From Bacteroides sp. (lineage in GTDB: Bacteria > Bacteroidota > Bacteroidia > Bacteroidales > Muribaculaceae): a stretch of DNA of 46,873 nucleotides. The translations under genes were made by a program, and so were the position numbers. Shown piece after piece: positions 2 to 14,309 of the stretch (within the stretch, counting starts at the first letter, position 1; each line of letters begins with the position of its first letter). Under the pieces are notes generated by a model, which worked only from the letters and a program-made list of their open reading frames with translations, had not been told where the DNA came from and did no database searches. The stretch spans positions 1 through 46,873 of the forward strand of contig JAAVDJ010000009.1 of assembly GCA_014801875.1 (NCBI GenBank), read 5' to 3'.

Positions 2-745
2 CTTGCCCTACACTACGAACGGCGCGACTCCATGCAAAGTCTTCACCAATTGTCTCTCTATAATTACGACCTTCATGACCGTAATAGAATTAAGGCTGAG
101 AATAAAATGATGAAATGGAGATCAGGGGTGGTAATTGCAATTATAGTCTTACTTATCGTAACCATCGTCTTTCTCATTCGTGAACGGAATAAGAGTCGCA
201 GGATTATCCTCCTTCAAAAAGACATTCTTGACTTGACCGAGCGTTTGTCGCAAGCGGAGATTGCCAACAACAGAATAGATGAGACTATTCCAACTGAAGA
301 GAATAATACACCTCAGGAAAATCCGGATTCATCCGAAAATAAGGGAAAGATACTCCTTTCTCGCCTTATGCCCATTATCAACGGAGAGGAGCCGAATCCT
401 CAACTTGAGATTCAGTTGGCATCATCTGATATCCTGAAAAAATTCAGAGATTGTATCTTGCAAAATGAGATTTCCACTGACGACTGGCTTGTTCTGGAAA
501 AGGAGGTGTTGAAACAATCACCCCATTTTCGGGAGAATCTGCGATTGCTCTCCAACAATTCCCTTGAGGACGCCGAATACCGGATTGCTTTGTTGATAAG
601 ATGTCACTTCCGACCCTCTGAGATTGGATATATTCTGGACATAAAACCGGGTACTGTCTCCCGACATCGGGGTAACATATCTAAAAAGATATTCAAACGG
701 AATATCGGCACACGCCTCATAGATCGTGTCATAAAATCACTTTGA
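2..745 (+). CDS. Membrane-anchored HTH (LuxR-like) regulator, 5' end cut by window
   Basis: The frame is open to the left edge, so the Met at 32 is probably internal and the N-terminal part is missing. Counting from that Met, a hydrophobic segment at about 32-50 is followed by a charged, probably coiled-coil stretch (51-85), an acidic Asn/Pro/Glu linker (86-105) and a C-terminal helical domain. Residues about 183-222 (SEIGYILDIKPGTVSRHR) look like a LuxR/GerE-type helix-turn-helix. In Bacteroidota this TM-HTH arrangement normally follows TPR repeats, which would lie off-window. Such proteins often sit upstream of peptide or polysaccharide loci; here the RiPP-type locus begins right after it. 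That it controls the locus is inference from position. No catalytic motifs are visible. Confidence 0.7.
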   Translation, partial: LALHYERRDSMQSLHQLSLYNYDLHDRNRIKAENKMMKWRSGVVIAIIVLLIVTIVFLIRERNKSRRIILLQKDILDLTERLSQAEIANNRIDETIPTEENNTPQENPDSSENKGKILLSRLMPIINGEEPNPQLEIQLASSDILKKFRDCILQNEISTDDWLVLEKEVLKQSPHFRENLRLLSNNSLEDAEYRIALLIRCHFRPSEIGYILDIKPGTVSRHRGNISKKIFKRNIGTRLIDRVIKSL

Positions 746-935: not shown

Positions 936-1346
936 ATGAAACAAAAATTCTTCATTATCCTCCTGGCTTTTCTTTTTGTCGTAGGCTCTTTTGAATGTGC
1001 CTCAGCAGATGATAATATGGAGTTTGAAACCTACCTTGTGGATATTACAACCACAGGACCGGATGATTCCGATGAAGAACCGAAACTCACCCCTTTTTTC
1101 CCTAGGAAGGAAAGATGCCCCGCTGTTCCTCTATTCTGCTCCATAAGCAGAGTGGGTGGAATCCAAATCTCAGGAGTAGACAACGCCGAGATTGTGAGCT
1201 TCGAGATTCTCGATGCCTACGGAAATACTGTCGCCGAACTCGCCGACGAAGCCGCTTTCATTGATACCCTTTTCTCTCTAAAAGGAGATTTCCGTATCGT
1301 GTTCCGGTTCAGCGACCATTCGCTCGCCGGCTGGATAAAAGCATAA
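936..1346 (+). CDS. Small secreted DUF3244-like protein
   Basis: 136 residues starting at the ATG at 936; the longer frame from TTG at 876 would lie inside the promoter. Residues 1-25 form a clear Sec signal peptide (charged start, hydrophobic core FFIILLAFLFVVGSF, likely cleavage after CASA). The mature part has the character of the DUF3244 family: a short beta-rich domain with an ILDAYGNTV segment resembling T9SS-like or Ig-like repeats. It contains Cys at the RCPAVPLFC segment. It is the first gene downstream of the regulator and directly precedes the RiPP precursor, so it may be an accessory periplasmic factor of the peptide system. The family call rests on overall shape and recall, so function is unassigned. 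Confidence 0.6.
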   Translation: MKQKFFIILLAFLFVVGSFECASADDNMEFETYLVDITTTGPDDSDEEPKLTPFFPRKERCPAVPLFCSISRVGGIQISGVDNAEIVSFEILDAYGNTVAELADEAAFIDTLFSLKGDFRIVFRFSDHSLAGWIKA

Positions 1347-1403: not shown

Positions 1404-1631
1404 ATGGAGTTTTCTATCTTAAAAGTGGAGGAATACGAAAATATGTTCCTCTCTGATGATGAAATGCTACTAATTGCAGGAGGAGAAACTGCAGTTTTAT
1501 GTGGCCAAGGTTGTGGAGTTGGTTGTGGCAACCAATGTGGACTTAATTGCTCCGGCGATTGTGGAGGCAATAGTAGTGAAGATGGTGATGATAATGGAAT
1601 CGAGACTCCTCCTGAAGGTAGACCTGTGTAA
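1404..1631 (+). CDS. RiPP precursor: Gly-Gly leader, six-Cys C-x3 periodic core
   Basis: 75 residues. Residues 1-27 form a leader rich in acidic and hydrophobic residues (LSDDEMLLIAGG) ending in the double-glycine site recognised by C39 peptidases. The core has Cys at 33, 37, 41, 45, 49 and 53, exactly every fourth residue, in CGQG-CGVG-CGNQ-CGLN-CSGD-CGG units. An acidic/polar tail ends in PPEGRPV. The next gene is a radical SAM/SPASM peptide maturase, and a C39 exporter lies 6.5 kb downstream, so three parts of a standard pathway are present. The family precedents are GG-leader, rSAM-modified peptides of Bacteroidales and Cys-x3 thioether peptides (ranthipeptides). The cross-link type cannot be read from sequence. 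Low GC compared with the flanking genes. Confidence 0.88.
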   Translation: MEFSILKVEEYENMFLSDDEMLLIAGGETAVLCGQGCGVGCGNQCGLNCSGDCGGNSSEDGDDNGIETPPEGRPV

Positions 1632-1679
1632 ATCCACTATCACATCCGAACATACTCTCCCTCATCCTTACAACTTAAA

Positions 1680-1721
1680 TTTTCTATATGGTAATCAAAA
1701 AATTGATTACCATATAGAAAA
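1680..1721 (+). promoter_or_regulatory. 19-bp perfect hairpin between precursor and maturase
   Basis: Arms 1680-1698 and 1703-1721 are perfectly complementary with a 4-nt AAAA loop. It lies 48 nt after the precursor stop and 24 nt before the maturase ATG. There is no U-run directly after it, so it is more likely an mRNA-stabilising or partial attenuation element than a full terminator. That would favour precursor transcript over maturase transcript. Confidence 0.75.
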
Positions 1722-1744
1722 CAAATCTTAACAAGGTAACAATC

Positions 1745-3079
1745 ATGAAACTTAGCCGATACAATATTATCTTACCTTTTGAAAAATACAAGATCTACTA
1801 CAATTCTTTTACCGATCAATATATCGGACTTCCAGAAAAGATACATTCAATTTTAAATTCAGTAAGTGGCATTGAAATTTTAAAGGAGCAATTCCCTTAT
1901 CAATTTCAACATCTTGTTGAATTAGGGTTTATAATTGATAAAAATAGGGACGAATTAGATGAAATAAGATTTCAAAATAAAGTAGAGGCATTCGCTCCCA
2001 ATCAATTAACGTTGATGGTATATCCTACCCAAGATTGTAATCTGAAATGTTGGTATTGTTATGAATCACATATTCCAAATACAAGAATGTCTGCCGATAT
2101 ACAAGAGAGAGTGGTAAAGTACGTTGCGAAGAACATAAAAAATTATGAAAAGATTATTTTATCTTTTTTTGGAGGAGAACCTTTGACAGATTTCGCCTCT
2201 ATCGCCTATCCGTTATCATTAAAGATTAAGGAAATTGCACAATCTCATAATAAGAAATTCAATACATTCTTTATTACAAATGCAACTCTTATAGATGATG
2301 ACACAGTAAGGTTTCTAAAAGAGATTAATCCCTATTTTCAAATTACTTTGGACGGAGATAGGACAAAACATAATACCGTCCGTATACGTAAAGAGGGTGC
2401 TAAGGAAACATACGATGACATTATTTGTGCTATTAAAAAAATCACGAGAGACATTTACAATCCGGAAACTTACACCAATCCTATAATTACAATTCGTATT
2501 AATTACGATAATACTACACTAAAAAACATATCATCATTATTGACAGATTTAAATGACATAGACAGAAAAGCTATTCATTTTCATCTTGAACGTGTGTGGC
2601 AAACACGACACTTGATCAACTCTGAACAACGTATACTTCTAAATCAGACAATAAGAAATCTGATTAATCTAGGTTTCTCCGTAGGTCATGGTTCTTTTAG
2701 CAGAAAAAGAGTTTCATGCCCTGCTGAGGTTAAAAGCCACATGATTGTAAACTATGATGGCGATTTATTCCGTTGTAATGGAAGAACTCTATCTAAATCT
2801 ACAAGAGAAGGTTATCTATCACAAGAAGGTGATCCCGTTTGGGATCCAATCATACAGGCAAAAAGACAGGGAAAGGCAACATTTGAAAATTCTGAATGTC
2901 TTGATTGTGTTATGCTTCCCCAATGTATGGGGCCGTGTAGTCAAAAGATTATTGAACAAAATGGCTTTAATAAGAAAATATGCAACCTAAACTCAATAGA
3001 TGTGTCTTTAAAAGATTATCTAAAAGGGGAGTTAGAACTTCGCCTCCTTGTGAGAGGTGGGAAAAAAATTAAAAGCTGA
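1745..3079 (+). CDS. Radical SAM/SPASM peptide maturase
   Basis: 444 residues. The N-terminal ~80 residues precede the SAM domain and could hold a leader-binding (RRE-like) domain. The radical SAM CX3CX2C motif CNLKCWYC has Cys near 98, 102 and 105, followed by the SAM-binding FFGGEP motif (~141-146). The C-terminus carries a complete SPASM pattern: a Cys near 324, GDLFRC, then ECLDC, a CX5C and CMGPC (~384-397), and a last Cys near 412. SPASM enzymes bind auxiliary 4Fe-4S clusters and install thioether or C-C bonds in peptides. The adjacent Cys-periodic precursor is the evident substrate. The gene is strikingly AT-rich compared with the downstream transporter, suggesting that precursor and maturase were acquired together. 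Confidence 0.92.
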   Translation: MKLSRYNIILPFEKYKIYYNSFTDQYIGLPEKIHSILNSVSGIEILKEQFPYQFQHLVELGFIIDKNRDELDEIRFQNKVEAFAPNQLTLMVYPTQDCNLKCWYCYESHIPNTRMSADIQERVVKYVAKNIKNYEKIILSFFGGEPLTDFASIAYPLSLKIKEIAQSHNKKFNTFFITNATLIDDDTVRFLKEINPYFQITLDGDRTKHNTVRIRKEGAKETYDDIICAIKKITRDIYNPETYTNPIITIRINYDNTTLKNISSLLTDLNDIDRKAIHFHLERVWQTRHLINSEQRILLNQTIRNLINLGFSVGHGSFSRKRVSCPAEVKSHMIVNYDGDLFRCNGRTLSKSTREGYLSQEGDPVWDPIIQAKRQGKATFENSECLDCVMLPQCMGPCSQKIIEQNGFNKKICNLNSIDVSLKDYLKGELELRLLVRGGKKIKS

Positions 3080-3105
3080 TCAGGCTACATTAGCTCTCTA
3101 TAATT

Positions 3106-5256
3106 ATGAAAATACTAAACTCCAAATTACGGCATATGCCGGAGCTATTTCCTTTAGGATTATTCCTATGGGCATATTTTTGTGGCTCTCTTTACGGTCT
3201 ATCCCGGACAACAGCACCTGAACTGAAAGATACTGTCGCAAATAGGCTCAATGAGGTCGTGATTGAAGGGAAGTCGGAATTGATGACTGACCAAGGTCTG
3301 AGATACACACCTGACAGGAAACAGAAATCCGCTGCCATGACCGGTGCTGACCTCATAAACAGAATGGGAATCCCTCAGCTCTCAGTCAATATGGCTACGG
3401 AGAGTATAAGCTCTACTGACGGAGGGCAAATAGCAATTTTCATAAACAAAGTACCCGCTTCCAACGAGGAACTAAGGGCAATGCGTCCCGAAGACGTGAA
3501 ATATATAGAAGTTCTTGACAATCCCTCCGACCCAAAGTTTATGGGACAACGGAGGGTAGTAAACTTTGTTATGTTGCAATATCAATATGGGGGATATATC
3601 AAAATAAACCCTAAAGGCACTCTCATTACTGATGAGGGTTCGATAAGGGCTAACATGAAATTGAAGTTTAAGGCAATGACCTTCGACCTTATGGGAATTG
3701 GGAGTTATGATGAATCCAACCATACATATACCACTCTTTCTGAGTCCCTCTCCTTCCCCTCAAATTATCCCGTTAATAGTTTCGTTGCCGAATCCGGAGT
3801 CTCCAAAGCGAAAAAGAAAGATAGGAATGGTACGATCTCTTTCCGTGCGCTCTATTCCTCAGATAAGATTTCTGCCAACTCCACTTTGTCCGCTAAAATT
3901 GACAGACAACCGATTGCCCGCTATTCCGGAGATGTCAGCTACACTCCATCCGTCCTCCCCGGCTCAAATTATAGTTCAGAGTCTGACTACATCAAACGAT
4001 ATATCTCTTATTCCGGAAACTATTTCTTCTCCCTGCCTAAAGGAAATAGCCTCAATATGATGCTTCAATCTGTCGTCTCTAACACCTCCCAAAACTCATC
4101 TTACGCAGAATCATCCATATCATCAATCATCAACGGAGCGAAAGATGTCTCATCTGATCTGAGGGGGGTGGTATACTATTCTCATTCTTTTTCTCCATAC
4201 AGTTCTTTAGGAGTTACCTTGAGCACAATATATTCCTTTAACAATACCTCATACAACGGATCTACCTTGGCTGACGACCGTTCTCACTCCTTTTTTCTTC
4301 TTGGAGGAGCAAGCTATTATTTCAGGCGGGGCAAATGGGATACCAACATCGGGATGGGATGGACTCGGACTCTTTCCAGACTCAACGCTCGCCATGTGAT
4401 AAGCTACGGTCCATACGCTGACCTGAATGTGAACTTTAGAATAGACAATAAGCAAAAAATATCGGCTGAAGGACACCTGAGTGTGTGGACACCGCCGGCC
4501 AATCAAAAGAGTGACATCATAATATATTCGCGTCCTTTCTTGTGGATTACCGGTAATCCGGATTTGAAACAATACGGAGCCCTTGATCTCGCATTGAGAT
4601 ATTCTTTGATGCTTTCTAAGAAAATATCCTTTTCCTCTTACATCTCTCTTATGGGACTAAACAGAAGGTGTGCTTACGACTATATCCCTTATGACGACGA
4701 GGAGGGATTGTTGCGTACAATCATACAGCCCGCCGGCAAATATATAAACCAAAAAATGGGGGCCACCCTGACGCTCCGTCTGCTCGAAAGAAGCCTGATG
4801 CTGAAAGGATCAATTACTGAGAACCATATCCATGATAACGGTCCGGCAGGCTGGAACCATACATTTTTCAATTACAGTATTCAGGCTTTTTATTATCTCG
4901 GCAAATTCAGTTTCGGTCTCTATTATCAGTCGCCAAATGAGTTTTCTGACAACCATATGTCAAGCGGACTGAAGAAAACCAAATCAACATGGAATTTTAA
5001 TATCGGGTGGAGCAAGGGTGGTTTCAATGTGCGGCTGACAGCTTACGATCTGACCAGATGGAACTGGGAATCCGGTTCGTTGAAGATGTCTTCCAAATAT
5101 TATTCCTATCATCAGGGAATATATGGTGACACCCGACATGCCTCTATAGAATTGACCGCGTCATATTTCATTGATTTCGGGAAAAAAGTCAAAAAAGGGA
5201 ACGAGCTGAATGATACCGACCTCCATACCTCAGGAATCCTTGCGTGGCAGCCATGA
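3106..5256 (+). CDS. TonB-receptor-like outer-membrane beta-barrel protein
   Basis: 716 residues, starting 27 bp after the maturase. An N-terminal hydrophobic export segment (Met at 1 or at 11) is followed by a plug-like region (LNEVVIEGK ... DLINRMGIPQLSVN ... VKYIEVL, ~50-145). The remaining ~550 residues show alternating aromatic strands of an outer-membrane barrel (OMP_b-brl_3 type), with the terminal strand in SIELTASYFIDFG. It lacks the N-terminal carboxypeptidase-regulatory domain found in the next barrel. It is very probably part of the peptide locus, as an outer-membrane exit, uptake or immunity partner; the sequence does not say which. Confidence 0.78.
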   Translation: MKILNSKLRHMPELFPLGLFLWAYFCGSLYGLSRTTAPELKDTVANRLNEVVIEGKSELMTDQGLRYTPDRKQKSAAMTGADLINRMGIPQLSVNMATESISSTDGGQIAIFINKVPASNEELRAMRPEDVKYIEVLDNPSDPKFMGQRRVVNFVMLQYQYGGYIKINPKGTLITDEGSIRANMKLKFKAMTFDLMGIGSYDESNHTYTTLSESLSFPSNYPVNSFVAESGVSKAKKKDRNGTISFRALYSSDKISANSTLSAKIDRQPIARYSGDVSYTPSVLPGSNYSSESDYIKRYISYSGNYFFSLPKGNSLNMMLQSVVSNTSQNSSYAESSISSIINGAKDVSSDLRGVVYYSHSFSPYSSLGVTLSTIYSFNNTSYNGSTLADDRSHSFFLLGGASYYFRRGKWDTNIGMGWTRTLSRLNARHVISYGPYADLNVNFRIDNKQKISAEGHLSVWTPPANQKSDIIIYSRPFLWITGNPDLKQYGALDLALRYSLMLSKKISFSSYISLMGLNRRCAYDYIPYDDEEGLLRTIIQPAGKYINQKMGATLTLRLLERSLMLKGSITENHIHDNGPAGWNHTFFNYSIQAFYYLGKFSFGLYYQSPNEFSDNHMSSGLKKTKSTWNFNIGWSKGGFNVRLTAYDLTRWNWESGSLKMSSKYYSYHQGIYGDTRHASIELTASYFIDFGKKVKKGNELNDTDLHTSGILAWQP

Positions 5257-5318
5257 ATACAATGAAATTCTTCGAGGCAATTGTGCCTCGGCTTATCAAT
5301 TGGAGCGAAACCTGTGCA

Positions 5319-5381
5319 TTCATTATCCTCCCGGCTTTTCCTTTTGTCGAACGCGCTTTTGAATGTGACGAAGCAAAAGAT
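5319..5381 (+). pseudogene. Remnant duplicate of the DUF3244-like signal-peptide region
   Basis: 63 nt align without gaps to 951-1013 in the DUF3244-like gene, with about 10 mismatches by hand count. The shared words include TTCATTATCCTCC, GGCTTTTC and CTTTTGAATGTG. The alignment does not extend on either side. In this copy the hydrophobic core is broken by charged residues (PFVERAFEC), and the surrounding 80-codon frame does not resemble the parent. It looks like the scar of a decayed paralogue. Confidence 0.6.
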
Positions 5382-5411
5382 ACATACCGAGACGGTAAAG
5401 ATTCCGTAAAG

Positions 5412-5438
5412 ATGAGTAAACTTTTTTCGTTTACTCAT
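5412..5438. terminator. Hairpin downstream of the first barrel gene
   Basis: Perfect 10-bp inverted repeat (5412-5421 / 5429-5438) with a T-rich 7-nt loop. A second, weaker 7-bp hairpin lies at 5478-5498. No classical U-run follows either one, so they may end or stabilise the upstream transcript. Confidence 0.45.
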
Positions 5439-5519
5439 ATTAAAAGCATCATTTTACACCCTCATAAATATCAATGCACCAAATAATTGTAATTTGGTAC
5501 AAAAACGGTACTCATTTCC

Positions 5520-5552
5520 TTGACAAACGGGGGGAACAACTTTGTAACTTTG
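5520..5552 (+). promoter_or_regulatory. Promoter inside the 600-bp gap between barrel genes
   Basis: A perfect -7 box TAACTTTG (5545-5552) has TTG (5520-5522) about 22 bp upstream. It sits 17 bp before the ATG of a 39-codon frame and 300 bp before the second barrel gene. Confidence 0.55.
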
Positions 5553-5568
5553 CCAAAAAAATTTGAAC

Positions 5569-5688
5569 ATGAAGACGATTTCCAAAACTATCCTCATCAA
5601 TAACTCCGGAAAATTTCGGATCCGGAACGCGGACAGCGTATCGCAAGAATTCCAAACAGCTTTTTCTCTCCATATATTAGAATACTGA
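5569..5688 (+). CDS. Possible 39-residue peptide behind a consensus promoter
   Basis: ATG at 5569, stop at 5686-5688. The product begins MKTISKTILINNSGKFR and ends HILEY. It has no signal peptide, Cys cluster or Gly-Gly site, so it does not look like a second RiPP precursor. It could be a leader peptide, the truncated start of a lost gene, or chance. The only support is the strong -7 box 17 bp upstream. Confidence 0.25.
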   Translation: MKTISKTILINNSGKFRIRNADSVSQEFQTAFSLHILEY

Positions 5689-5726
5689 CTATAAACCGTT
5701 TACCCTCAGAATTCAGTTCTAAATCG

Positions 5727-5801
5727 AATTCCAAACCACCATTTTGGAATTAAATTGGAACTGTCTTGTAGTCATTATTCAGAGAGACCTGCGTAACTTT
5801 A
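5727..5801 (+). promoter_or_regulatory. Inverted repeat and -7-like box before second barrel gene
   Basis: A 9-bp perfect inverted repeat AATTCCAAA / TTTGGAATT (5727-5735 / 5743-5751) lies upstream of TAACTTTA (5794-5801), one base off the -7 consensus. A start near 5807 would leave a ~45-nt leader before the ATG at 5853. The repeat is placed like an operator. Confidence 0.4.
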
Positions 5802-5852
5802 CGCCATACACATAAAACCGAAAACCAATTATACTCTCTCCTTCTTCATAAC

Positions 5853-8126
5853 ATGTTTTCACGTATATTATTCCTCATCTCCCTGTTGGTCTTTACTTCT
5901 TCAATTATGGCGGACAGGACACTTGTGGTAAAAGTGGAGCAACCTAACGGCGAAGCTATTCCCGGGGCTACTGTCTACGGTTTGCGCAACGACAGCACCC
6001 TGATTGGAGCCTCACTCTCTGAATCTGACGGAATCGCAAGACTTATATTGGCTGAAACTCCATTCCTGATAAAAGGCACTTCTACGGGATATGCCCCGTC
6101 TGTGGTTCCTTTCAAAGAAGGAACCGATTCAATTCTACTTCGACTCTCTCCTGAAGAAACACGTCTTGAGGGAATCGAAGTGACCGCATCCATCCAAAGA
6201 GATGCGGAGGGAAAAGAGATTTTCACCATTACTGACGAAATGCGAAAAAATACCAATAACGCAGCCAACCTGATTGCCAAACTTCCCGGAGTGAGCGTAA
6301 ATCAAGCTACGGAAACTATCCGCATCGGCACGGAATCCGACATAAAGGTAATAGTAGACGGGCAGGAAGTATCCCGCCAATATGCCATGAGCCTCAACTC
6401 GAAGCGAATAAAATCTATTGAGATTGAAAGAAATCCTTCCGGAAGATATGCCGGCTCTAATATAGTGGTCAATATAATCCTGAATAAGAGTTATCAGGGC
6501 ATCGACCTCAGTCTTCAGGGGAAATACACTCAATTCCTGCAGAATGGTTTCTCCAACAACGAGGGGGAAGCATTTAATGTTACCTCCACTTTCGGAAAAT
6601 GGAATTTATATGCCTCAGAGGAATTTTCTCGCTCTTTATGGAAAGAGGCGGAGGGGTATTCCATACATTCGGAAGGTTTCTCGCCGACTGTGGCTGACAC
6701 GCCCCCTGCGTCCGACCCTAATATCTCACAACGTACACTTTCATGGAAGACCCTGATTGGAATCGACTGCAACCTCTCTTCTTCACACGTCATATCAGCC
6801 CAGTTCAGCTATGACCACACAAATGCACGCAAAAGCGAAGATCAGCTAATGTCAGACCCCGCCGGCAACTTCACTTCATACTATCTTCAGAAATATCGCA
6901 ACAATAACTTCGTTGGAGGAATTTTCTATCATGGAGCCCTCGGTGATAACTGGAATCTCTCTGCCGACTTCATCTATAACCGATATGGAATCAGGGAAAA
7001 CCGTGATTTCTCCCAACCCCTCTCCTCTTCATTTTCCTCTACCGACGGAGACAAGGATTATATCCAGACATATCTCACCGCCTCATGGCGTCCTTCAAAA
7101 AAATGGAGAATCTCCCTGAAATATAACCTTACCTGGCGCGACTATAATACTGTCAGCCAAGCGGAAGTGAGAACCAATCTTTCCGAGACACGCAATCTTC
7201 CCAACGTAGACATTTATTTCCGTCCTGTCTCAAACTTCAATATTCGCCTTGGAGGAAGCTGGCAGCATATTTCCAAGAGTAACGACGACATGAAACTCTC
7301 GGAATCATCCTTCATGCCTGATGCCCGAATCTACTGGCGTCCCTTCAAATGGATGAAAATAATAGCTCTATACTACTGTGATGTGGAATATCCGAATCTC
7401 GACCTGCTCTCCCCTCAGCAATGGAAAGTGGCTGACGGTGTGCTCCATGTCGGCAATCCGGAACTGAAAGCAAAAGTGATGCACTATGCCAATCCACAGA
7501 TAACATTTCTTAACTGCCTGAAGATCGAATATATGTACAGACGGGCTGCCAATGACATCTCGACCGTATATCTTCCTTCTGAGGATTATCGTAACGGAGT
7601 CATACAGACTTACGCCAACAGCACTATCATCCACCAGTATGCGGGCATACAGTTTTTCCGCAATCTCCATCGCGATTTCAAAATAGACATTCTCGGCAAC
7701 TACCAGTGGTATCAGCGCAAATATGATGCCTCGAAAGGATATGGGCGCACATGGTATCTCGATGCTTCCGCAGAGTGGAATATAATGGGGAAAGGATATG
7801 TGGCACAAGCTGAATATTTCCTGCGCGATGACAGAATACCTGTTCCAATGGGTCGGGAGATCGCGCGGCAGGAGGGTCTGAATCTTTCAGTTTTCAAACT
7901 ATTTCTAAAGAATCGTCTCTCTGTAGCCCTTTTCGGAATAATACCTACCCGCCTGCTCCCTGCCGTAAATCATACCTTCATCTCAGCTCCGGGATTCTCT
8001 TTTTCTCAGACTCAAAATCTCACAAACACAGGGTCATGGTGCGCAGGCATCAACATACGTTTCCGCTTCGGAAACGGGAAAGTGCGCAACGCGGAAGACT
8101 ATATCCGTTTCGAGAAGGAGAAATAA
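5853..8126 (+). CDS. CarboxypepD_reg plus TonB-type outer-membrane barrel
   Basis: 757 residues. Signal peptide ~1-20 (FLISLLVFTSSIMA), then a carboxypeptidase-regulatory-like beta-sandwich (~22-100; GEAIPGATVYGL). A plug-like domain follows (~105-215; NLIAKLPGVSVN ... IKVIVDGQEV ... IKSIEIERNPSGRYAG), then a barrel of the OMP_b-brl_3 family. This domain order is typical of Bacteroidota outer-membrane proteins of unknown cargo. It lies only 23 bp upstream of the C39 exporter, so the two are probably co-transcribed and the barrel may act with the exporter. I found no TonB box I could name with confidence. Confidence 0.82.
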   Translation: MFSRILFLISLLVFTSSIMADRTLVVKVEQPNGEAIPGATVYGLRNDSTLIGASLSESDGIARLILAETPFLIKGTSTGYAPSVVPFKEGTDSILLRLSPEETRLEGIEVTASIQRDAEGKEIFTITDEMRKNTNNAANLIAKLPGVSVNQATETIRIGTESDIKVIVDGQEVSRQYAMSLNSKRIKSIEIERNPSGRYAGSNIVVNIILNKSYQGIDLSLQGKYTQFLQNGFSNNEGEAFNVTSTFGKWNLYASEEFSRSLWKEAEGYSIHSEGFSPTVADTPPASDPNISQRTLSWKTLIGIDCNLSSSHVISAQFSYDHTNARKSEDQLMSDPAGNFTSYYLQKYRNNNFVGGIFYHGALGDNWNLSADFIYNRYGIRENRDFSQPLSSSFSSTDGDKDYIQTYLTASWRPSKKWRISLKYNLTWRDYNTVSQAEVRTNLSETRNLPNVDIYFRPVSNFNIRLGGSWQHISKSNDDMKLSESSFMPDARIYWRPFKWMKIIALYYCDVEYPNLDLLSPQQWKVADGVLHVGNPELKAKVMHYANPQITFLNCLKIEYMYRRAANDISTVYLPSEDYRNGVIQTYANSTIIHQYAGIQFFRNLHRDFKIDILGNYQWYQRKYDASKGYGRTWYLDASAEWNIMGKGYVAQAEYFLRDDRIPVPMGREIARQEGLNLSVFKLFLKNRLSVALFGIIPTRLLPAVNHTFISAPGFSFSQTQNLTNTGSWCAGINIRFRFGNGKVRNAEDYIRFEKEK

Positions 8127-8149
8127 AGGAACACTGACAACTATAGGGA

Positions 8150-10354
8150 ATGAAAGATAAGGATTTTGTAAAGCAGAGAGATGCCATGCAGTGTGGAGTG
8201 GCGGCCCTGACCATGGTGTGCCGCCACTTCGGAGCCCGATATTCCCTCGATTTCGTGTCGAAATTCTGTCATGCCACCACCGAGGGAGTCTCGCTCAAGG
8301 GAATAAGCGATGCCGCCGAACGATTGGGGCTCGAAACCTGCGGCGCGCGGGTCAGCCCTTCCCAGCTCGCAGCGGCTCCCCTCCCGGCAATACTCCACTG
8401 GAACCAGAACCATTTCGTGGTGCTCCGTAAGGTCAGTCGCAGCGGGCGCCGGTTCCATATCGCCGACCCGGGGAAAGGGCTCTATTCCCTCTCGGAATCG
8501 GAATTCAGACAGCACTGGATAAGCACCTCGCGCGACGGAAAGGAGATGGGAGTGGCACTGTTTCTCGAACCCACCGAGAAATTCGGGGAGATGGAAGACG
8601 ACGTCTGGAGCGGCGAGGAGCAACGTTCATTCCGCTTCCTGTTCGGCTACGTCAGGCAATACCGTAAATATTTCCTGCAGATCACCCTCGGTCTGCTCCT
8701 CGCCTGCATCCTGCAGCTCATCCTCCCCTTCCTCACGCAATCGATTGTCGATGTCGGAATACGTCATGAGAATGTAGGTTTCATCTGGCTCATCCTGCTC
8801 GGCGAACTGATGATAGTGGCCGGACGCACAGCCACCGACTTCATACGCCGATGGCTTCTGCTCCACATTTCCATGCGGATAAACATCTCCCTGCTGAGTG
8901 ATTTCTTCATAAAGCTTCTGAAGCTCCCGATGTCGTTTTTCGACACAAAGCTGACAGGCGATCTCCTCCAGCGCATGGGCGACCACAACCGGGTGCAGTC
9001 GTTCCTTACCTCCCAGCTCCTGAATGTGGTCTTCACCGTCTTCAGTTTCCTCATTTTCGGAGTGGTGTTGTTCATATACGACGGACTGATATTCCTCATC
9101 TTCCTCCTCGGGAGCGTGGCCTACGGCGCGTGGATAGCCACTTTCCTGCGCCGGCGCAAGGTCATTGACTACGAACTCTTCGAGCAACAGGCGATAAACC
9201 AGAACCGCACTTTCCAGTTCATAACCTCCATGCAGGAGATAAAACTTCAGGACTGCGAGCGCCGCAGGCGTTGGGAATGGGAAGATTGCCAGGCGGATCT
9301 CTTTGCCGTGCAGATGAAATCTCTCCGTCTGCAGCAGACTCAGGAAGCGGGAAGCATATTCATCAACGAAGTGAAGAATATCCTGATTACTGTCTTCGCC
9401 GCGACCGCGGTCATACACGGAGAAATCACATTGGGCGCGATGCTCGCGATACAGTATATTGTCGGGCAGCTCAATTCCCCGGTGGCGCAGCTGATGCAGT
9501 TTGTCTTTTCCCTTCAGGACGTTAAGATTTCTCTGGAGCGCATCAACGAGATTCACGGCGGACGTAACGAGGAGCCGGAAAGGGAACGGCTTACGGATTT
9601 TCCTGCCGGAGAGCCTCGGGGGATAGCATTCAGGAATGTCTCATTCCGCTATGACCCTCACGCGCTGCGGAAGACAATCGACGGCGTGTCGATCGATATT
9701 CAGGAGGGGAAAGTGACGGCTATAGTCGGGGCGAGCGGAAGCGGAAAGACAACCTTGCTGAAACTCATGCTGGGATATTATCCCTTGGAGGAGGGGGCTG
9801 TCGAGGTGGCCGGGAAGCCTCTTTCCGATTATAATATGAAGTGGTGGCGCCGACATTGCGGAGTGGTGATGCAAGACGGGGTGATCTTCTCCGAATCCAT
9901 CGCCAGGAATATTGCCGTAGATGATAATGAGATTGACCCGGAACGTTTGGAACGGGCGGCTCGCATCGCCTGTATCCATGATTATGTGATGTCTCTTCCG
10001 TTGAGATACGACACTAAAGTGGGGAAAGACGGACGCGGATTAAGCCAAGGACAACGGCAGCGTATTCTGATAGCGAGGGCGGTCTATCGTAACCCTGATT
10101 TCATCTTCCTTGACGAGGCCACAAACTCACTGGATGCCAAAAACGAGCGCGTGATTGTGGAGAACCTCGCGGATTTTTACAAGGGGAAGACCGTAGTGGT
10201 GGTTGCCCACCGCCTTTCGACGGTGAGCAATGCCGACAATATCATTGTGCTTGACGATGGCAAAGTGGTGGAGACCGGGACTCATGATGAACTCACGGCT
10301 AAACGAGGGGCATATTATAACCTCGTGCGCAATCAGCTGGAGCTGGGGAGTTAG
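8150..10354 (+). CDS. Peptidase-containing ABC exporter (C39 protease, bacteriocin type)
   Basis: 734 residues with the full PCAT order. The N-terminal C39 cysteine protease has catalytic Cys15 in QRDAMQCGVAAL, His88 in HWNQNHFVVL and Asp106 in IADPGKG. A six-helix ABC membrane domain spans about 165-450. The nucleotide-binding domain has Walker A GASGSGKTT (~526), signature LSQGQ (~630), Walker B FIFLDEA (~650) and the H-loop His in VVAHRLST (~687). Such exporters cut after a Gly-Gly leader and push the core through the inner membrane, matching the precursor upstream. GC is much higher than in the precursor/maturase pair. An HlyD-type adaptor normally accompanies it; only an anchor-sized relative follows. 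Confidence 0.95.
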   Translation: MKDKDFVKQRDAMQCGVAALTMVCRHFGARYSLDFVSKFCHATTEGVSLKGISDAAERLGLETCGARVSPSQLAAAPLPAILHWNQNHFVVLRKVSRSGRRFHIADPGKGLYSLSESEFRQHWISTSRDGKEMGVALFLEPTEKFGEMEDDVWSGEEQRSFRFLFGYVRQYRKYFLQITLGLLLACILQLILPFLTQSIVDVGIRHENVGFIWLILLGELMIVAGRTATDFIRRWLLLHISMRINISLLSDFFIKLLKLPMSFFDTKLTGDLLQRMGDHNRVQSFLTSQLLNVVFTVFSFLIFGVVLFIYDGLIFLIFLLGSVAYGAWIATFLRRRKVIDYELFEQQAINQNRTFQFITSMQEIKLQDCERRRRWEWEDCQADLFAVQMKSLRLQQTQEAGSIFINEVKNILITVFAATAVIHGEITLGAMLAIQYIVGQLNSPVAQLMQFVFSLQDVKISLERINEIHGGRNEEPERERLTDFPAGEPRGIAFRNVSFRYDPHALRKTIDGVSIDIQEGKVTAIVGASGSGKTTLLKLMLGYYPLEEGAVEVAGKPLSDYNMKWWRRHCGVVMQDGVIFSESIARNIAVDDNEIDPERLERAARIACIHDYVMSLPLRYDTKVGKDGRGLSQGQRQRILIARAVYRNPDFIFLDEATNSLDAKNERVIVENLADFYKGKTVVVVAHRLSTVSNADNIIVLDDGKVVETGTHDELTAKRGAYYNLVRNQLELGS

Positions 10355-10402
10355 GGAGAAGGGAGAAGGGAGAAGGGAGAAGGGAGAAGGGAGAAGGGAG
10401 AA
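10354..10402 (+). repeat. Seven perfect copies of heptamer GGGAGAA
   Basis: Exactly 7 x 7 bp, beginning on the last base of the exporter's TAG stop codon and ending 66 bp before the next small gene. It is all purine on this strand. Tandem repeats like this can change copy number by slippage and so alter spacing or mRNA structure. Confidence 0.9.
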
Positions 10403-10470
10403 GGAATTGCGACGAAGCGTGTGCTGGAGGTATTAACCCCCTCAAACCTCGAACCTTAAAGAATAGAAAC

Positions 10471-10656
10471 ATGGATGAACGTTCGGAAAAAGTAAAGAAA
10501 CTGCTCGGAGACATTCCTCCCTCTCTGGTGAGATGGGGGAATCTTGTGCTGCTCCTGGTATTCCTCGCTCTCTTGATCGGCATTGGAGCAATTATATATC
10601 TTTCCCCGGAGGAACTGCGAAATTATCTCTTCTCTATCCTTCACATAAGAATCTGA
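10471..10656 (+). CDS. 61-residue HlyD-anchor-like membrane protein
   Basis: The product has a charged N-terminus (SEKVKKLLGDIPPSLVRWG), one hydrophobic helix (~25-45) and a short tail ending HILHIRI-like (ILHIRI). In Bacteroidota HlyD/membrane-fusion proteins the N-terminus commonly has this layout: an acidic start, a 'P-x-W/L-x-R-W/G' turn, a single TM helix, then the periplasmic hairpin and barrel. Here the chain stops right after the helix. I see no continuing HlyD frame in the 195 bp downstream. It follows the C39 exporter, exactly where the adaptor gene is expected. It is either a truncated adaptor or a true mini-subunit of the exporter. Confidence 0.6.
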   Translation: MDERSEKVKKLLGDIPPSLVRWGNLVLLLVFLALLIGIGAIIYLSPEELRNYLFSILHIRI

Positions 10657-10851
10657 TATATTTTTCAGTAAGTATCTAAGATTTAAAATGAAATAATTTT
10701 GGAAGTTGTTTAAACACCTTCATTATAATCCTCTTTCCCTCGTTTAGTTATTAATGGCAAATTGTTTCCTCCTATCTACGAACCTGAAGATTTGGAGTAT
10801 CTGATTTTAGATTCACAATTATAACACTTAAAAATATAAATATTTATAGAT
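10657..10851 (+). other. AT-rich leader region before GLPGLI gene, no gene recognised
   Basis: 195 bp with no convincing reading frame or strong consensus promoter. It contains a GTTTAAAC word (10708-10715), also present at 18784-18880. It probably carries the promoter of the GLPGLI/barrel pair. Confidence 0.4.
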
Positions 10852-11697
10852 ATGAAAAGACAGATTTTTCTTTTGCTCGCTCTTGCCTCACTGTGCTCCG
10901 CTCTCGGGTCAATCATTGAACCGAAAGAACCGGCCATTCTTGAAGTGACTTATGATAAAGTGACAAATCTTGACACGCTGAACCGTGCAAAAAAAACTAT
11001 TATTTCAGAAGAGATGAGACTGAGAATAGGGAAAACATCCTCTATGTTCTATCCCCCTAAAAGTTTGTGGTATGACTCTTTACGGACAAATAATTTCGAA
11101 CTGTCTGAACAGATTTATCGCGCAGCAAACCCTCCCGGTCAAAAACGCTTCGTAAGCATAGGGGGTCTTGAAAGGGAGTTTGTCTTCAGGAATGTCAGGG
11201 AAAACCAGACACTCGTGTATCAATCCAGTGCGGATAATGAGTATTATATCGAAGATACTGAACTACCTGAATGGACAATTGAATCGGACACTAAGGAGAT
11301 TCTCGGGTACGAGTGTCTTAAAGCCACCTGTGATTATCGTGGTCGACATTGGACTGCCTGGTTTGCCCCCGAACTCCCCTTCAAGGAGGGTCCGTGGAAA
11401 CTTGCCGGGCTCCCGGGGCTGGTGCTCGAAGCTTACGACACCCACTCCGACTATCATTTCCTCGCTTCAGCAATCACAGATTCAGGTCTCCAGCCTGTAG
11501 GAATATATATTTATTCAAGCCAAGATCCCTTCGTCTATAAATCCCGGTTGAAAGTCCTTTCCCGTCTTTGGAGAGAGAAATTGCAAGGCAATTCAACTTA
11601 TCGCATTCAGTCAATATTGGCCAAACAGGGGGCGGCTGCCCGACCTCCTCGTAAAAGCAAATATGATTTCCTTGAAACGGATTATCCACATGAATGA
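10852..11697 (+). CDS. GLPGLI family secreted protein
   Basis: 281 residues. Signal peptide ~1-18 (FLLLALASLCSALG). The family-defining motif appears as GPWKLAGLPGLVLEA (~181-195), preceded by the usual ILGYECLKATCDYRGRHWTAWFAPELPF segment, with two conserved Cys near 156 and 161. GLPGLI proteins are a Bacteroidota family of unknown biochemical role, often encoded beside a CarboxypepD_reg outer-membrane barrel, as here. The gene lies 23 bp upstream of that barrel. Whether the pair belongs functionally to the RiPP locus or is an independent module is not decided by the sequence. Confidence 0.9.
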   Translation: MKRQIFLLLALASLCSALGSIIEPKEPAILEVTYDKVTNLDTLNRAKKTIISEEMRLRIGKTSSMFYPPKSLWYDSLRTNNFELSEQIYRAANPPGQKRFVSIGGLEREFVFRNVRENQTLVYQSSADNEYYIEDTELPEWTIESDTKEILGYECLKATCDYRGRHWTAWFAPELPFKEGPWKLAGLPGLVLEAYDTHSDYHFLASAITDSGLQPVGIYIYSSQDPFVYKSRLKVLSRLWREKLQGNSTYRIQSILAKQGAAARPPRKSKYDFLETDYPHE

Positions 11698-11720: not shown

Positions 11721-14309
11721 ATGAGAACTTTCATCCTCGCTTTTCTCCTGCTGTGTCCTCTCTCTTTGCTCTACGGTCAGCCGGAAGAGACAGCCACTTT
11801 TGCAGGAACAATCATAGAGGAGACCTCCGGCTCTCCTGTGCCCGGAGCAAATGTCGTTGTCAAAAGCAACGGCAAGATGAAAGCATTCGCATCTTCAGAG
11901 GCGGATGGGAAATTCTTATTGACCATACAAAAAAATCTCCCGGACCTGTCCATAACTGTCTCCGCCACGGGCTACAAAACTTATACAAGTCCTTTGGATT
12001 ACGCCGATTCCCCCCTTACCGTCATTCTTGCGGATGGCGCGCTGCAGCTCAAGGAAGTGGTAGTGAAAAGCAAGCCCATTACTGCCGAGGGAGACACACT
12101 GACCTATACCGTCAGCAGTTTCGCACAGAGCCAGGACCGCTCGATTGGTGACGTGCTGAGACATATGCCCGGAATCGACGTTGCAGAAAGCGGAAAAATT
12201 AAATATCAGGGTTCTGAAATAAATAAGTTCTACATCGAGGGGAGCGACCTCCTTGAGGGGAAATATGGAATCGCCACCAACGGAATCGACCATAGAGACG
12301 TGGGGGCGGTGGAGGTGATGGAGAATCATCAGCCGATACGTGTGCTTCAAGGATACAGCATATCCGATCAGGCTGCCATAAACCTGAAACTGAAGGATAG
12401 GGCAAAGGCTAAGCTGACCGGGCATGGCATGATAGGCGCCGGAGCGGCGACACAGCCGCATGGATTCGTATGGGACACGGATCTCTTCGGAATGATGATT
12501 ATGGGGAAATATCAGAACATAACCACATTCAAGGCCAATAACACCGGGGTCAGGTTAGCCGACCAACTGACCAGATTCTATGCCGATCATAGCGACGAGA
12601 CAATTACACCTTACCTTTCCCTGTCACTTCCGTCTCCTCCACAGCTTCGCTTGAAATCCACTTTCCTCAACCGCTCATGGATGGCGTCGACAAACAATCT
12701 TTGGAAAACAGGAGACGGAAGCGATGTAAAACTACAGATAGACTACCTAAATGACCGAGCAACCGCCGCCGCCTCCTCCATTACATCATATATCCTTCCG
12801 GAGGGTGAGAAGGTAATCTCCGAAGACCGCTCCTCCGTAAGCCACAGAAATGCCCTGACAGCGAAAGTCTCTACTGAAATCAACCGCAAGACATTCTATC
12901 TCACCAATGTGCTTGACGCTGATCTTTCCTGGAACGACCTGCGCCTGAACACCACAGGCACTCTCGACAACAGGCAGACGGCTCACTCCCCTGAATTTCA
13001 TGTCAGCAACCGCTTTAAAGTGATGAGACGCATTCATGGTTCCCGACTCGTGACTTTCAAAAGCATAAATGAATGGGTCTCTCTTCCTGAGCGGCTTTCT
13101 GTGGCATTGCCCGACGGGACATATTCCGAAAAGATACGCCAGCATTCGTTCTATACTGACGAGAGAATCTCTTTCGGGATGGCAATCAGGCGCGTGCATA
13201 TCGAGATGGAGGGAGGAGTGGCAGGTTTCTTCCGCTCATTCTCAACTGACATCTCCGACACACTTTTCCCGGACCAAAACATCTTCAAATCTCTCTCGAC
13301 CAATTATCTCCGCATCTTCATCAAACCCTCCTTCAAATGGGCACACCGCCGTGTGGAAGCGCATCTGAATGTTCCTCTTAATCTTTACTCCTATTTCCTC
13401 TCCCCCAATCTTGCCGACCGGACTGAATTCCTGTTTAATCCAGGCCTGACACTCAGCTGGAAGCCCTATCCCGGAGTGTCAGTCGCTGTCAATGGCAGTA
13501 TCAGCCGTTCTCCCGCCTCCCTTCATACCCTTCACCCTTTCCCCGTATTGACCGATTACAGGCATGTCAGCACAGGCACCACCGACTATCTCTCCCCATC
13601 TGCCGAGAGCGTAGGTTTCAGCCTACGCTGGCGCCACGTCCCCTCCGGAATATTTCTGAATGCCTACGCCTCTCGAATATGGAACCACACGGGATATGAG
13701 ACAGTGCGCAACGTTGAGGATGATTTCGTGTTTTCCTCCTATAGAAAATCTGACACATCGAGCGAAATGACCATCGTGAGGGGAGATTTAAGCACAAACA
13801 TAGGTTTCATAAACGGAGTGGCAGGAATCAGGGGCAACTATATAATCAATGACAACCATATGATTTCCCAGGGCTTGCCTTCAGTCATCGGAACACGCAT
13901 GATTTATGTCGGTCCGTTCATAAACGGAGCTGCAGGAGGAATTGTCAACTGGAGCCTTCGTTTCGGCTGGGACAGAAACGTCATGAGGGTGGGCTCGCTT
14001 TCAAACCGCTCCACGGACAGTTTCATCTGGAACGCGACCCTGACCCTTACACCCTTCACCCGGCTTGTATGGCATTCCTCGCTCGACCATTACAGGATAC
14101 AGACAGCAGGAGGATTCGTAAACATGGCAATGCTTGACTCCCGGATTACATTCCATCTCAGCAAACGAATCGACATTACCGCCGGAGTGAGCAATATCCT
14201 TGACAAGAAAGATTTCTCCTACACCTCCTACGGAACAGCATCAGAGATGGAAACCCACTCCATGCTGCGCGGACGAGAGTTCTTAATATCCCTTATGCTG
14301 AAAAAATAA
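11721..14309 (+). CDS. CarboxypepD_reg outer-membrane barrel, partner of GLPGLI protein
   Basis: 862 residues. Signal peptide ~1-19, then a carboxypeptidase-regulatory-like domain (~25-110; TIIEETSGSPVPGANVVVKS). A plug-like region follows (~115-235; LKEVVVKSKPI ... IGDVLRHMPGIDV ... INKFYIEGSDLL ... VEVMENHQPI), then a long beta-barrel. The last strand lies near REFLISLMLKK. It is the standard neighbour of GLPGLI proteins and the third barrel in this 11-kb block. The ~175-bp gap to acpP and a hairpin there mark the end of the accessory block. Confidence 0.88.
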   Translation: MRTFILAFLLLCPLSLLYGQPEETATFAGTIIEETSGSPVPGANVVVKSNGKMKAFASSEADGKFLLTIQKNLPDLSITVSATGYKTYTSPLDYADSPLTVILADGALQLKEVVVKSKPITAEGDTLTYTVSSFAQSQDRSIGDVLRHMPGIDVAESGKIKYQGSEINKFYIEGSDLLEGKYGIATNGIDHRDVGAVEVMENHQPIRVLQGYSISDQAAINLKLKDRAKAKLTGHGMIGAGAATQPHGFVWDTDLFGMMIMGKYQNITTFKANNTGVRLADQLTRFYADHSDETITPYLSLSLPSPPQLRLKSTFLNRSWMASTNNLWKTGDGSDVKLQIDYLNDRATAAASSITSYILPEGEKVISEDRSSVSHRNALTAKVSTEINRKTFYLTNVLDADLSWNDLRLNTTGTLDNRQTAHSPEFHVSNRFKVMRRIHGSRLVTFKSINEWVSLPERLSVALPDGTYSEKIRQHSFYTDERISFGMAIRRVHIEMEGGVAGFFRSFSTDISDTLFPDQNIFKSLSTNYLRIFIKPSFKWAHRRVEAHLNVPLNLYSYFLSPNLADRTEFLFNPGLTLSWKPYPGVSVAVNGSISRSPASLHTLHPFPVLTDYRHVSTGTTDYLSPSAESVGFSLRWRHVPSGIFLNAYASRIWNHTGYETVRNVEDDFVFSSYRKSDTSSEMTIVRGDLSTNIGFINGVAGIRGNYIINDNHMISQGLPSVIGTRMIYVGPFINGAAGGIVNWSLRFGWDRNVMRVGSLSNRSTDSFIWNATLTLTPFTRLVWHSSLDHYRIQTAGGFVNMAMLDSRITFHLSKRIDITAGVSNILDKKDFSYTSYGTASEMETHSMLRGREFLISLMLKK

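Follow-up and report, generated by a model that had tools for sequence, protein, structure and literature searches.

A short gene in a draft genome of the Muribaculaceae encodes a peptide with one cysteine at every fourth residue, and the next gene encodes a radical S-adenosylmethionine (rSAM) enzyme with a SPASM domain. This arrangement raises the question of how such a cysteine ladder is modified and how the resulting peptide leaves the cell. The window, i.e. the whole stretch of DNA that was analyzed, comprises 46,873 nucleotides (Bacteroides sp., assembly GCA_014801875.1, contig JAAVDJ010000009.1, positions 1 to 46,873 of the forward strand), and its source genome is a 2.1-Mb draft of 76% completeness. 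The system is ordinary in kind, a ribosomally synthesized and post-translationally modified peptide (RiPP) with an rSAM maturase and C39 export, and the peptide family is new and unnamed, with an unexpected exporter variant. The explanation that we favor overall, an rSAM-modified RiPP with tandem rings from the sulfur of Cys(i) to the alpha carbon of residue i+3, has in our judgement an even chance of being correct. The peptide and its modifying enzyme are encoded as follows.

1404..1631, plus strand: RiPP precursor of 75 aa with a Gly-Gly (GG) leader and a CGxx ladder core
1479..1484, plus strand: Gly-Gly leader cleavage site (residues 26-27), invariant in eight aligned genome precursors
1500..1562, plus strand: core ladder from Cys33 to Cys53 (CGQG CGVG CGNQ CGLN CSGD C)
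1745..3079, plus strand: rSAM/SPASM peptide maturase of 444 aa with an N-terminal, leader-binding region resembling a RiPP recognition element (RRE)

The window precursor has Cys at positions 33, 37, 41, 45, 49 and 53, forming five four-residue units followed by CGG. This agrees with an earlier sequence-only reading of the locus, which had described six Cys with three residues between them, five Cys-Gly or Cys-Ser units, and the Gly-Gly at 26-27. For six Cys placed randomly in the 48-residue core, the probability that all spacings equal four is 2.3e-6, and that of any equal spacing is 1.7e-5; the ladder is supported more strongly by its conservation in relatives. A single-sequence search with the window precursor returned no relatives, and when 61 relatives were searched for precursors, the window's own copies alone stood out clearly (next best E 0.002), whereas an alignment-based search with a profile built from eight genome precursors (A2) identified 108 of 2095 candidates as relatives (E ≤ 0.01). 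Together with the window, and after removal of duplicates, these represent 102 distinct cores. In 35 of them all spacings are four, 36 end in a spacing of three, 16 are of a 4,8,4 type, and the 15 others include some truncated cores or cores with extra Cys. The longest ladder, from Leyella lascolaii, has nine Cys.

Among the 386 units C-x1-x2-x3-C of the 102 cores, x1 is Gly in 385, the sole exception being a Ser in the window core, and x3 is Gly in 180, Asn in 112, Asp in 41 and Ser in 20 units. Twenty units read CGGG and thus have no beta carbon between both Cys. Of 72 distinct ladders, 62 have x-G directly after their last Cys. Ladder-core sequence strings were not found in the literature searched, which left most subscription papers outside its coverage. 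Likewise, none of the NCBIfam models matched the window precursor or two of its relatives.

The maturase was recognized by PF04055 (62.4 bits), and the CX3CX2C motif (C98, C102, C105) and the seven SPASM cysteines (C325, C344, C385, C388, C394, C398, C413), the broad hallmarks of rSAM/SPASM peptide maturases, were invariant in 26 aligned sequences. The enzyme type proposed for the gene next to the precursor was thus borne out. No NCBIfam model exceeded its cut-off for this enzyme among the best 25 of 66 matches, and neither precursor nor maturase carries an NCBIfam name. At E ≤ 0.001 the maturase had 667 relatives, of which 120 were listed and 26 aligned. Close relatives were rare: at 1e-80 the only match in 393 genomes of the order was the window's own, and at 1e-60 matches occurred in four of 397 genomes of the family, the other three being 33-34% identical. 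These three loci from the window's family (L026, L027, L028) carry GCGCGC-type cores behind a GG leader.

A scan of genome contigs yielded 19 loci, which, where named below phylum level, we take to belong to the Bacteroidales. Seven contained a ladder-type precursor (L005, L006, L008, L009, L010, L012 and L018). The L007 stretch had none, yet the same strain contributed a ladder precursor (P0209) to the precursor relatives, and the remaining loci were more distant, truncated, or had other cores or none. Two of the loci look irregular: the Prevotella ihumii maturase reads as two pieces (L012:8115-10903; pieces at 8115-8558 and 9992-10903) with other open reading frames (ORFs) between them and is apparently interrupted, and in Hallella mizrahii one ORF (L006:4836-5177), judged by eye, begins like a C39 domain and ends like a SPASM domain, either by deletion or by misassembly. 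For twelve precursors, the longest contig of the assembly had exactly the same length as that of one of the 120 listed maturases, while ten shifted lengths gave 0-2 such matches. Precursor and maturase travel together.

In a tree of 26 maturases, the rows of which were chosen by us and left out L003, L004 and L020 as well as the broken maturases of L012 and L018, the ladder-bearing enzymes formed one clade (99/97). Maturases outside this clade, at approximately 30-40% identity, accompany CxCxC, GCGCGC or other cores; hence, the ladder marks one clade and not the whole enzyme family. Homologous loci without the ladder, which the sequence-only reading had named as an observation that would speak against it, thus exist in part, at this larger distance. 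The window maturase fell into a group with six others, each linked to a 4,4,4,4,3 precursor, one of these truncated (100/99). Neither the all-four nor the 4..43 core type was a single clade (two changes each), and L008, L010 and P0083 have 4..43 cores outside the window's group. Since the window core (...CGLNCSGDCGG) reads as a 4..43 core plus one Asp before the last Cys, this residue and the tree placement make the strict last interval look like a local variant of the 4,4,4,4,3 type. The claimed strict four-residue periodicity is thus a local feature.

The maturase very probably binds the leader via its RRE-like region and links the thiols of core Cys to carbon in an oxidative reaction, with 2 Da lost per bridge. 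Its best structural match, N-terminal region included, was CteB, the structure of which comes from a study of thioether formation. An anaerobic sulfatase maturase, the other enzyme type considered as a counter-explanation, is level by fold with the top match across residues 86-437, but the corresponding model TIGR03942 gave only 69.9 bits against a cut-off of 349.45. Chemistry cannot be read from a fold, and metal binding would also suit regularly spaced Cys; an enzyme that performs epimerization or C-C linkage, with a ladder serving metal binding or disulfide formation after export, is nevertheless quite unlikely, as the Cys ladder and the 7-Cys SPASM enzyme recur together. We take this pairing as a signature of thioether RiPPs.

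The bridges themselves are probably sulfur-to-alpha-carbon (sactionine) bonds, as residue use suggests: the all-Gly units argue against a fixed beta or gamma thioether. A ranthipeptide-like product with beta/gamma thioethers and acceptors varying from unit to unit, or with Cys-to-Cys links, would fit the scores of the PapB (114.1 bits) and SCIFF (77.7 bits) models on the maturase and the top fold match to CteB. It is very unlikely, however, given the 20 units that lack a beta carbon between both Cys, and because PapB uses Cys-X3-Asp/Glu according to the accessible part of PMC9413430, whereas residue i+4 is a Cys here.

The position of the acceptor is less certain. The sequence-only reading had suggested the Gly alpha carbon, the residue just before the next Cys, or Cys itself; the Gly-rich units indeed suggest an alpha carbon. 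The near-invariance of Gly at x1 (385 of 386 units) would also suit a link between Cys and an adjacent residue, i.e. the following Gly or the preceding residue. For Cys joined to the next Gly we know of no precedent; no search for one was made. In enteropeptins, a six-membered thiomorpholine is formed from Cys and N-methylornithine, which are adjacent in the sequences printed in the accessible part of PMC12395415. We consider an adjacent-residue link unlikely, and residue use before the first Cys speaks against the version with the preceding residue. Among 38 ladders of 4..43 type, 132 of 147 units have Gly at x3, yet 2 of the 38 have it directly before Cys1; among the 37 other ladders (at least three Cys), 150 of 178 units have Gly, Asn, Asp or Ser at x3, yet 11 of the 37 have one of these before Cys1; the window and the 4,8,4 cores were left out of this comparison, and P values are only indicative as the rows are related. 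The residue at x3 thus seems to go with the Cys preceding it, which disfavors an acceptor at i-1.

Our tentative proposal, which we hold somewhat short of even odds, is a bond from each ladder Cys(i) to residue i+3, so that the core would carry a series of four-residue rings, none nested in another, like a many-copy streptosactin. Acceptors would mostly be the Gly, Asn, Asp or Ser directly before the next Cys. The Gly at i+1, which hardly ever varies, would make such a tight ring possible, and the last Cys would be free or closed differently (C-x-G cap). The predicted mass of the window core is 4616.757 Da with five bridges and 4614.742 Da with six. The C39 domain would cut after Gly27, and the product would pass the ABC exporter and the short adaptor and exit through an outer-membrane protein (OMP). 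Its role may be guessed to be that of a narrow-range antibacterial or a signal. As a well-defined, unnamed rSAM-RiPP, the family yields a sharp prediction from its residue rules: alpha carbon, i+3, and 2 Da per rung.

The second part of the question concerns the export genes, which follow the maturase.

3106..5256, plus strand: OMP1, plug and barrel with a TonB-dependent-transporter fold
5853..8126, plus strand: OMP2, plug/barrel-like, directly 5' of the exporter; Plug, Autotransporter and CarboxypepD_reg matches all below cut-off
8150..10354, plus strand: C39-peptidase ABC exporter of 734 aa (PF03412 103.6, PF00005 108.7, PF00664 96 bits)
10471..10656, plus strand: HlyD-type adaptor stub of 61 aa, consisting of an N-terminal motif and one membrane helix

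The exporter has its C39, ABC membrane and ATPase domains over cut-off, as in C39 peptide exporters (PCAT), in agreement with the earlier assignment. The stub matched a profile built without it (A4) at E 4.3e-10 over profile positions 5-51 of 171, and stubs also occur in L005, L009 and L104. Among the adaptor frames listed, 106 of 148 exceed 400 aa; the 61-aa window stub does not reach this full HlyD-type length. Short adaptors occur widely alongside C39 exporters. Two side observations concern these genes: between exporter and stub (10354-10402) lies a tandem GGGAGAA repeat with seven exact units versus three in a strain-variant contig, a possible length variation, and an exporter beside a short adaptor in another locus (L101:2636-4843) reads, by eye, DSG for DCG near its start, so its peptidase Cys may be lost.

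Two or three outer-membrane barrels had been proposed at the locus. OMP1 had no Pfam match but has the plug and barrel of a TonB-dependent transporter, while the plug and barrel matches of OMP2 and the Plug match of a third candidate (11721-14309) were all below cut-off. Of the 19 short-adaptor loci that could be assessed, 13 have a TonB-type barrel immediately upstream of the exporter vs 1 of 23 full-length loci; the rule applied missed a barrel in L104 that Pfam finds, and the count of 13 was kept. The barrels are thus associated with the system, and their role as export or immunity parts is putative.

For the exporter alone, a rival reading has about equal chances of being right or wrong: the barrels would serve as receptors or in immunity, with the peptide re-entering or being sensed, and export would use a TolC encoded elsewhere. 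OMP1 shares its fold with import receptors, Cir and BtuB among them, the short-adaptor locus L102 adjoins a TolC-type (OEP) gene, and the source genome encodes longer adaptor-like proteins elsewhere, although none of them passes the type I HlyD cut-off. Against this, the barrel tracks the short adaptor in the above comparison. One query labeled as TolC (TolC_L017) is an S41 peptidase, and the identity of the other is unconfirmed; therefore, we do not claim absence of TolC. A distinct Bacteroidales export route for GG-leader RiPPs, with a C39 exporter, a reduced adaptor and, instead of TolC, a plugged barrel of TonB fold, is conceivable but rather unlikely. The reduced adaptor (the N-terminal motif plus its membrane helix, either alone or followed by a small C-terminal domain) would be too short for a hairpin reaching TolC, and the ladder peptide with at least five alpha-thioether rings would be one cargo. 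The finding bears on a published open question: the accessible part of a 2023 survey (PMC10352776) describes Bacteroidales clusters with exporter and OMP and no adaptor, and asks whether transport is distinct or an adaptor was overlooked. The short adaptors found next to C39 exporters are a plain candidate answer and may explain the missing adaptor.

The locus thus has all parts of the RiPP-type system claimed for it (GG leader, rSAM/SPASM maturase, C39 exporter, barrels). On the plus strand, the gene order is precursor, rSAM/SPASM, two barrel-like proteins, C39 exporter, 61-aa membrane protein, GLPGLI and receptor-like protein. The flanking genes are the following.

2..745, plus strand: regulator, C-terminal part, LuxR-type HTH (PF00196 20.9 bits, just under the cut-off of 23.5)
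936..1346, plus strand: small, probably secreted protein (ORF 876-1346, internal ATG at 936)
10852..11697, plus strand: GLPGLI family protein (TIGR01200 161.1 bits, cut-off 50); membership in the system uncertain
11721..14309, plus strand: TonB-receptor-like protein (CarboxypepD_reg_2 over cut-off, Plug under), with a related gene in L008; membership in the system uncertain

A complete copy of the regulator (576-aa ORF, L024:17-1747) is present on the strain-variant contig, and similar genes lie 5' of precursors in L005 and L009. ORF 876-1346 had been called DUF3244-like, but a Pfam search at E 0.1 gave no match. The variant contig (C24, L024) holds the same region, neighbors included, at 99.4% identity to the window; a second, duplicated locus with an identical maturase was considered and rejected for this reason, and the copy points to a strain mixture in the assembly. 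The source genome encodes two further rSAM/SPASM maturases of 30-31% identity (L003 on contig C11 and L004 on contig C1), both near small Cys-containing ORFs (L003:1152-1448; L004:2776-3003, the latter with a GG leader). A plasmid search returned seven records with a best identity of 34.9%.

Among known systems, the CXXX-repeat system (TIGR04115) resembles the window in its long four-residue Cys spacing, its rSAM/SPASM maturase and its hosts in the same order. The term "CXXX repeat" itself was not found among the papers listed by the literature searches, with the coverage stated above. Seven of 344 genomes of the order passed the TIGR04115 cut-off, and six of these seven loci hold an ORF with mostly four-spaced Cys (7 to about 42 per target). 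The four-residue ladder, which had been regarded as unusual and which the window precursor shares, is thus not without precedent. Small residues at x3 are a further shared feature (G/S/T/N/D/A in 84% of 96 units from the six loci, 95% in the window family). The two differ in other respects: x1 is variable (entropy 3.47 bits) vs 0 bits in 381 window-family units, an RR..F-type N-terminus occurs in five of the six targets and a GG leader like that of the window precursor in none, and the window maturase scores 64.6 bits where TIGR04115 requires 350.

CefB, the maturase for Cys at every fifth residue (NF038107), was the best NCBIfam model for the window maturase among the best 25 of 66 matches (162.4 bits), but its cut-off is 600 and the window spacing is four, not five. 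None of 345 genomes exceeded this cut-off, and two loci below it showed no Cys-every-fifth precursor. With the ranthipeptides (PapB, SCIFF/CteB) the window shares CteB as top solved-structure match by sequence profile and fold, whereas its ladder lacks Asp/Glu at i+4, which is Cys for Cys33-Cys49, and its maturase stays below the PapB (340) and SCIFF (425) cut-offs. The Bacteroidales clusters BGC6-9, compared here from the accessible part of their published description (PMC10352776), likewise combine a C39 exporter and an OMP without a recognized adaptor; in the window, the exporter is followed by the 61-aa stub.

Streptosactin (GggA/GggB, streptococci) is the precedent for the proposed chemistry. 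According to the accessible part of PMC8172795, it contains unnested Cys(i)-(i+3) alpha thioethers with Gly/Ser acceptors (Cys25-Ser28 and Cys31-Gly34), and the accessible part of PMC13361665 gives a span of four residues per ring. The GggB model NF050038 (cut-off 650) gave 42.4 bits on the relative L005 and 41.3 on L011, with no entry for the window maturase among the best 25 of 66 matches. Streptosactin has two rings, compared with the five or six predicted for the window peptide.
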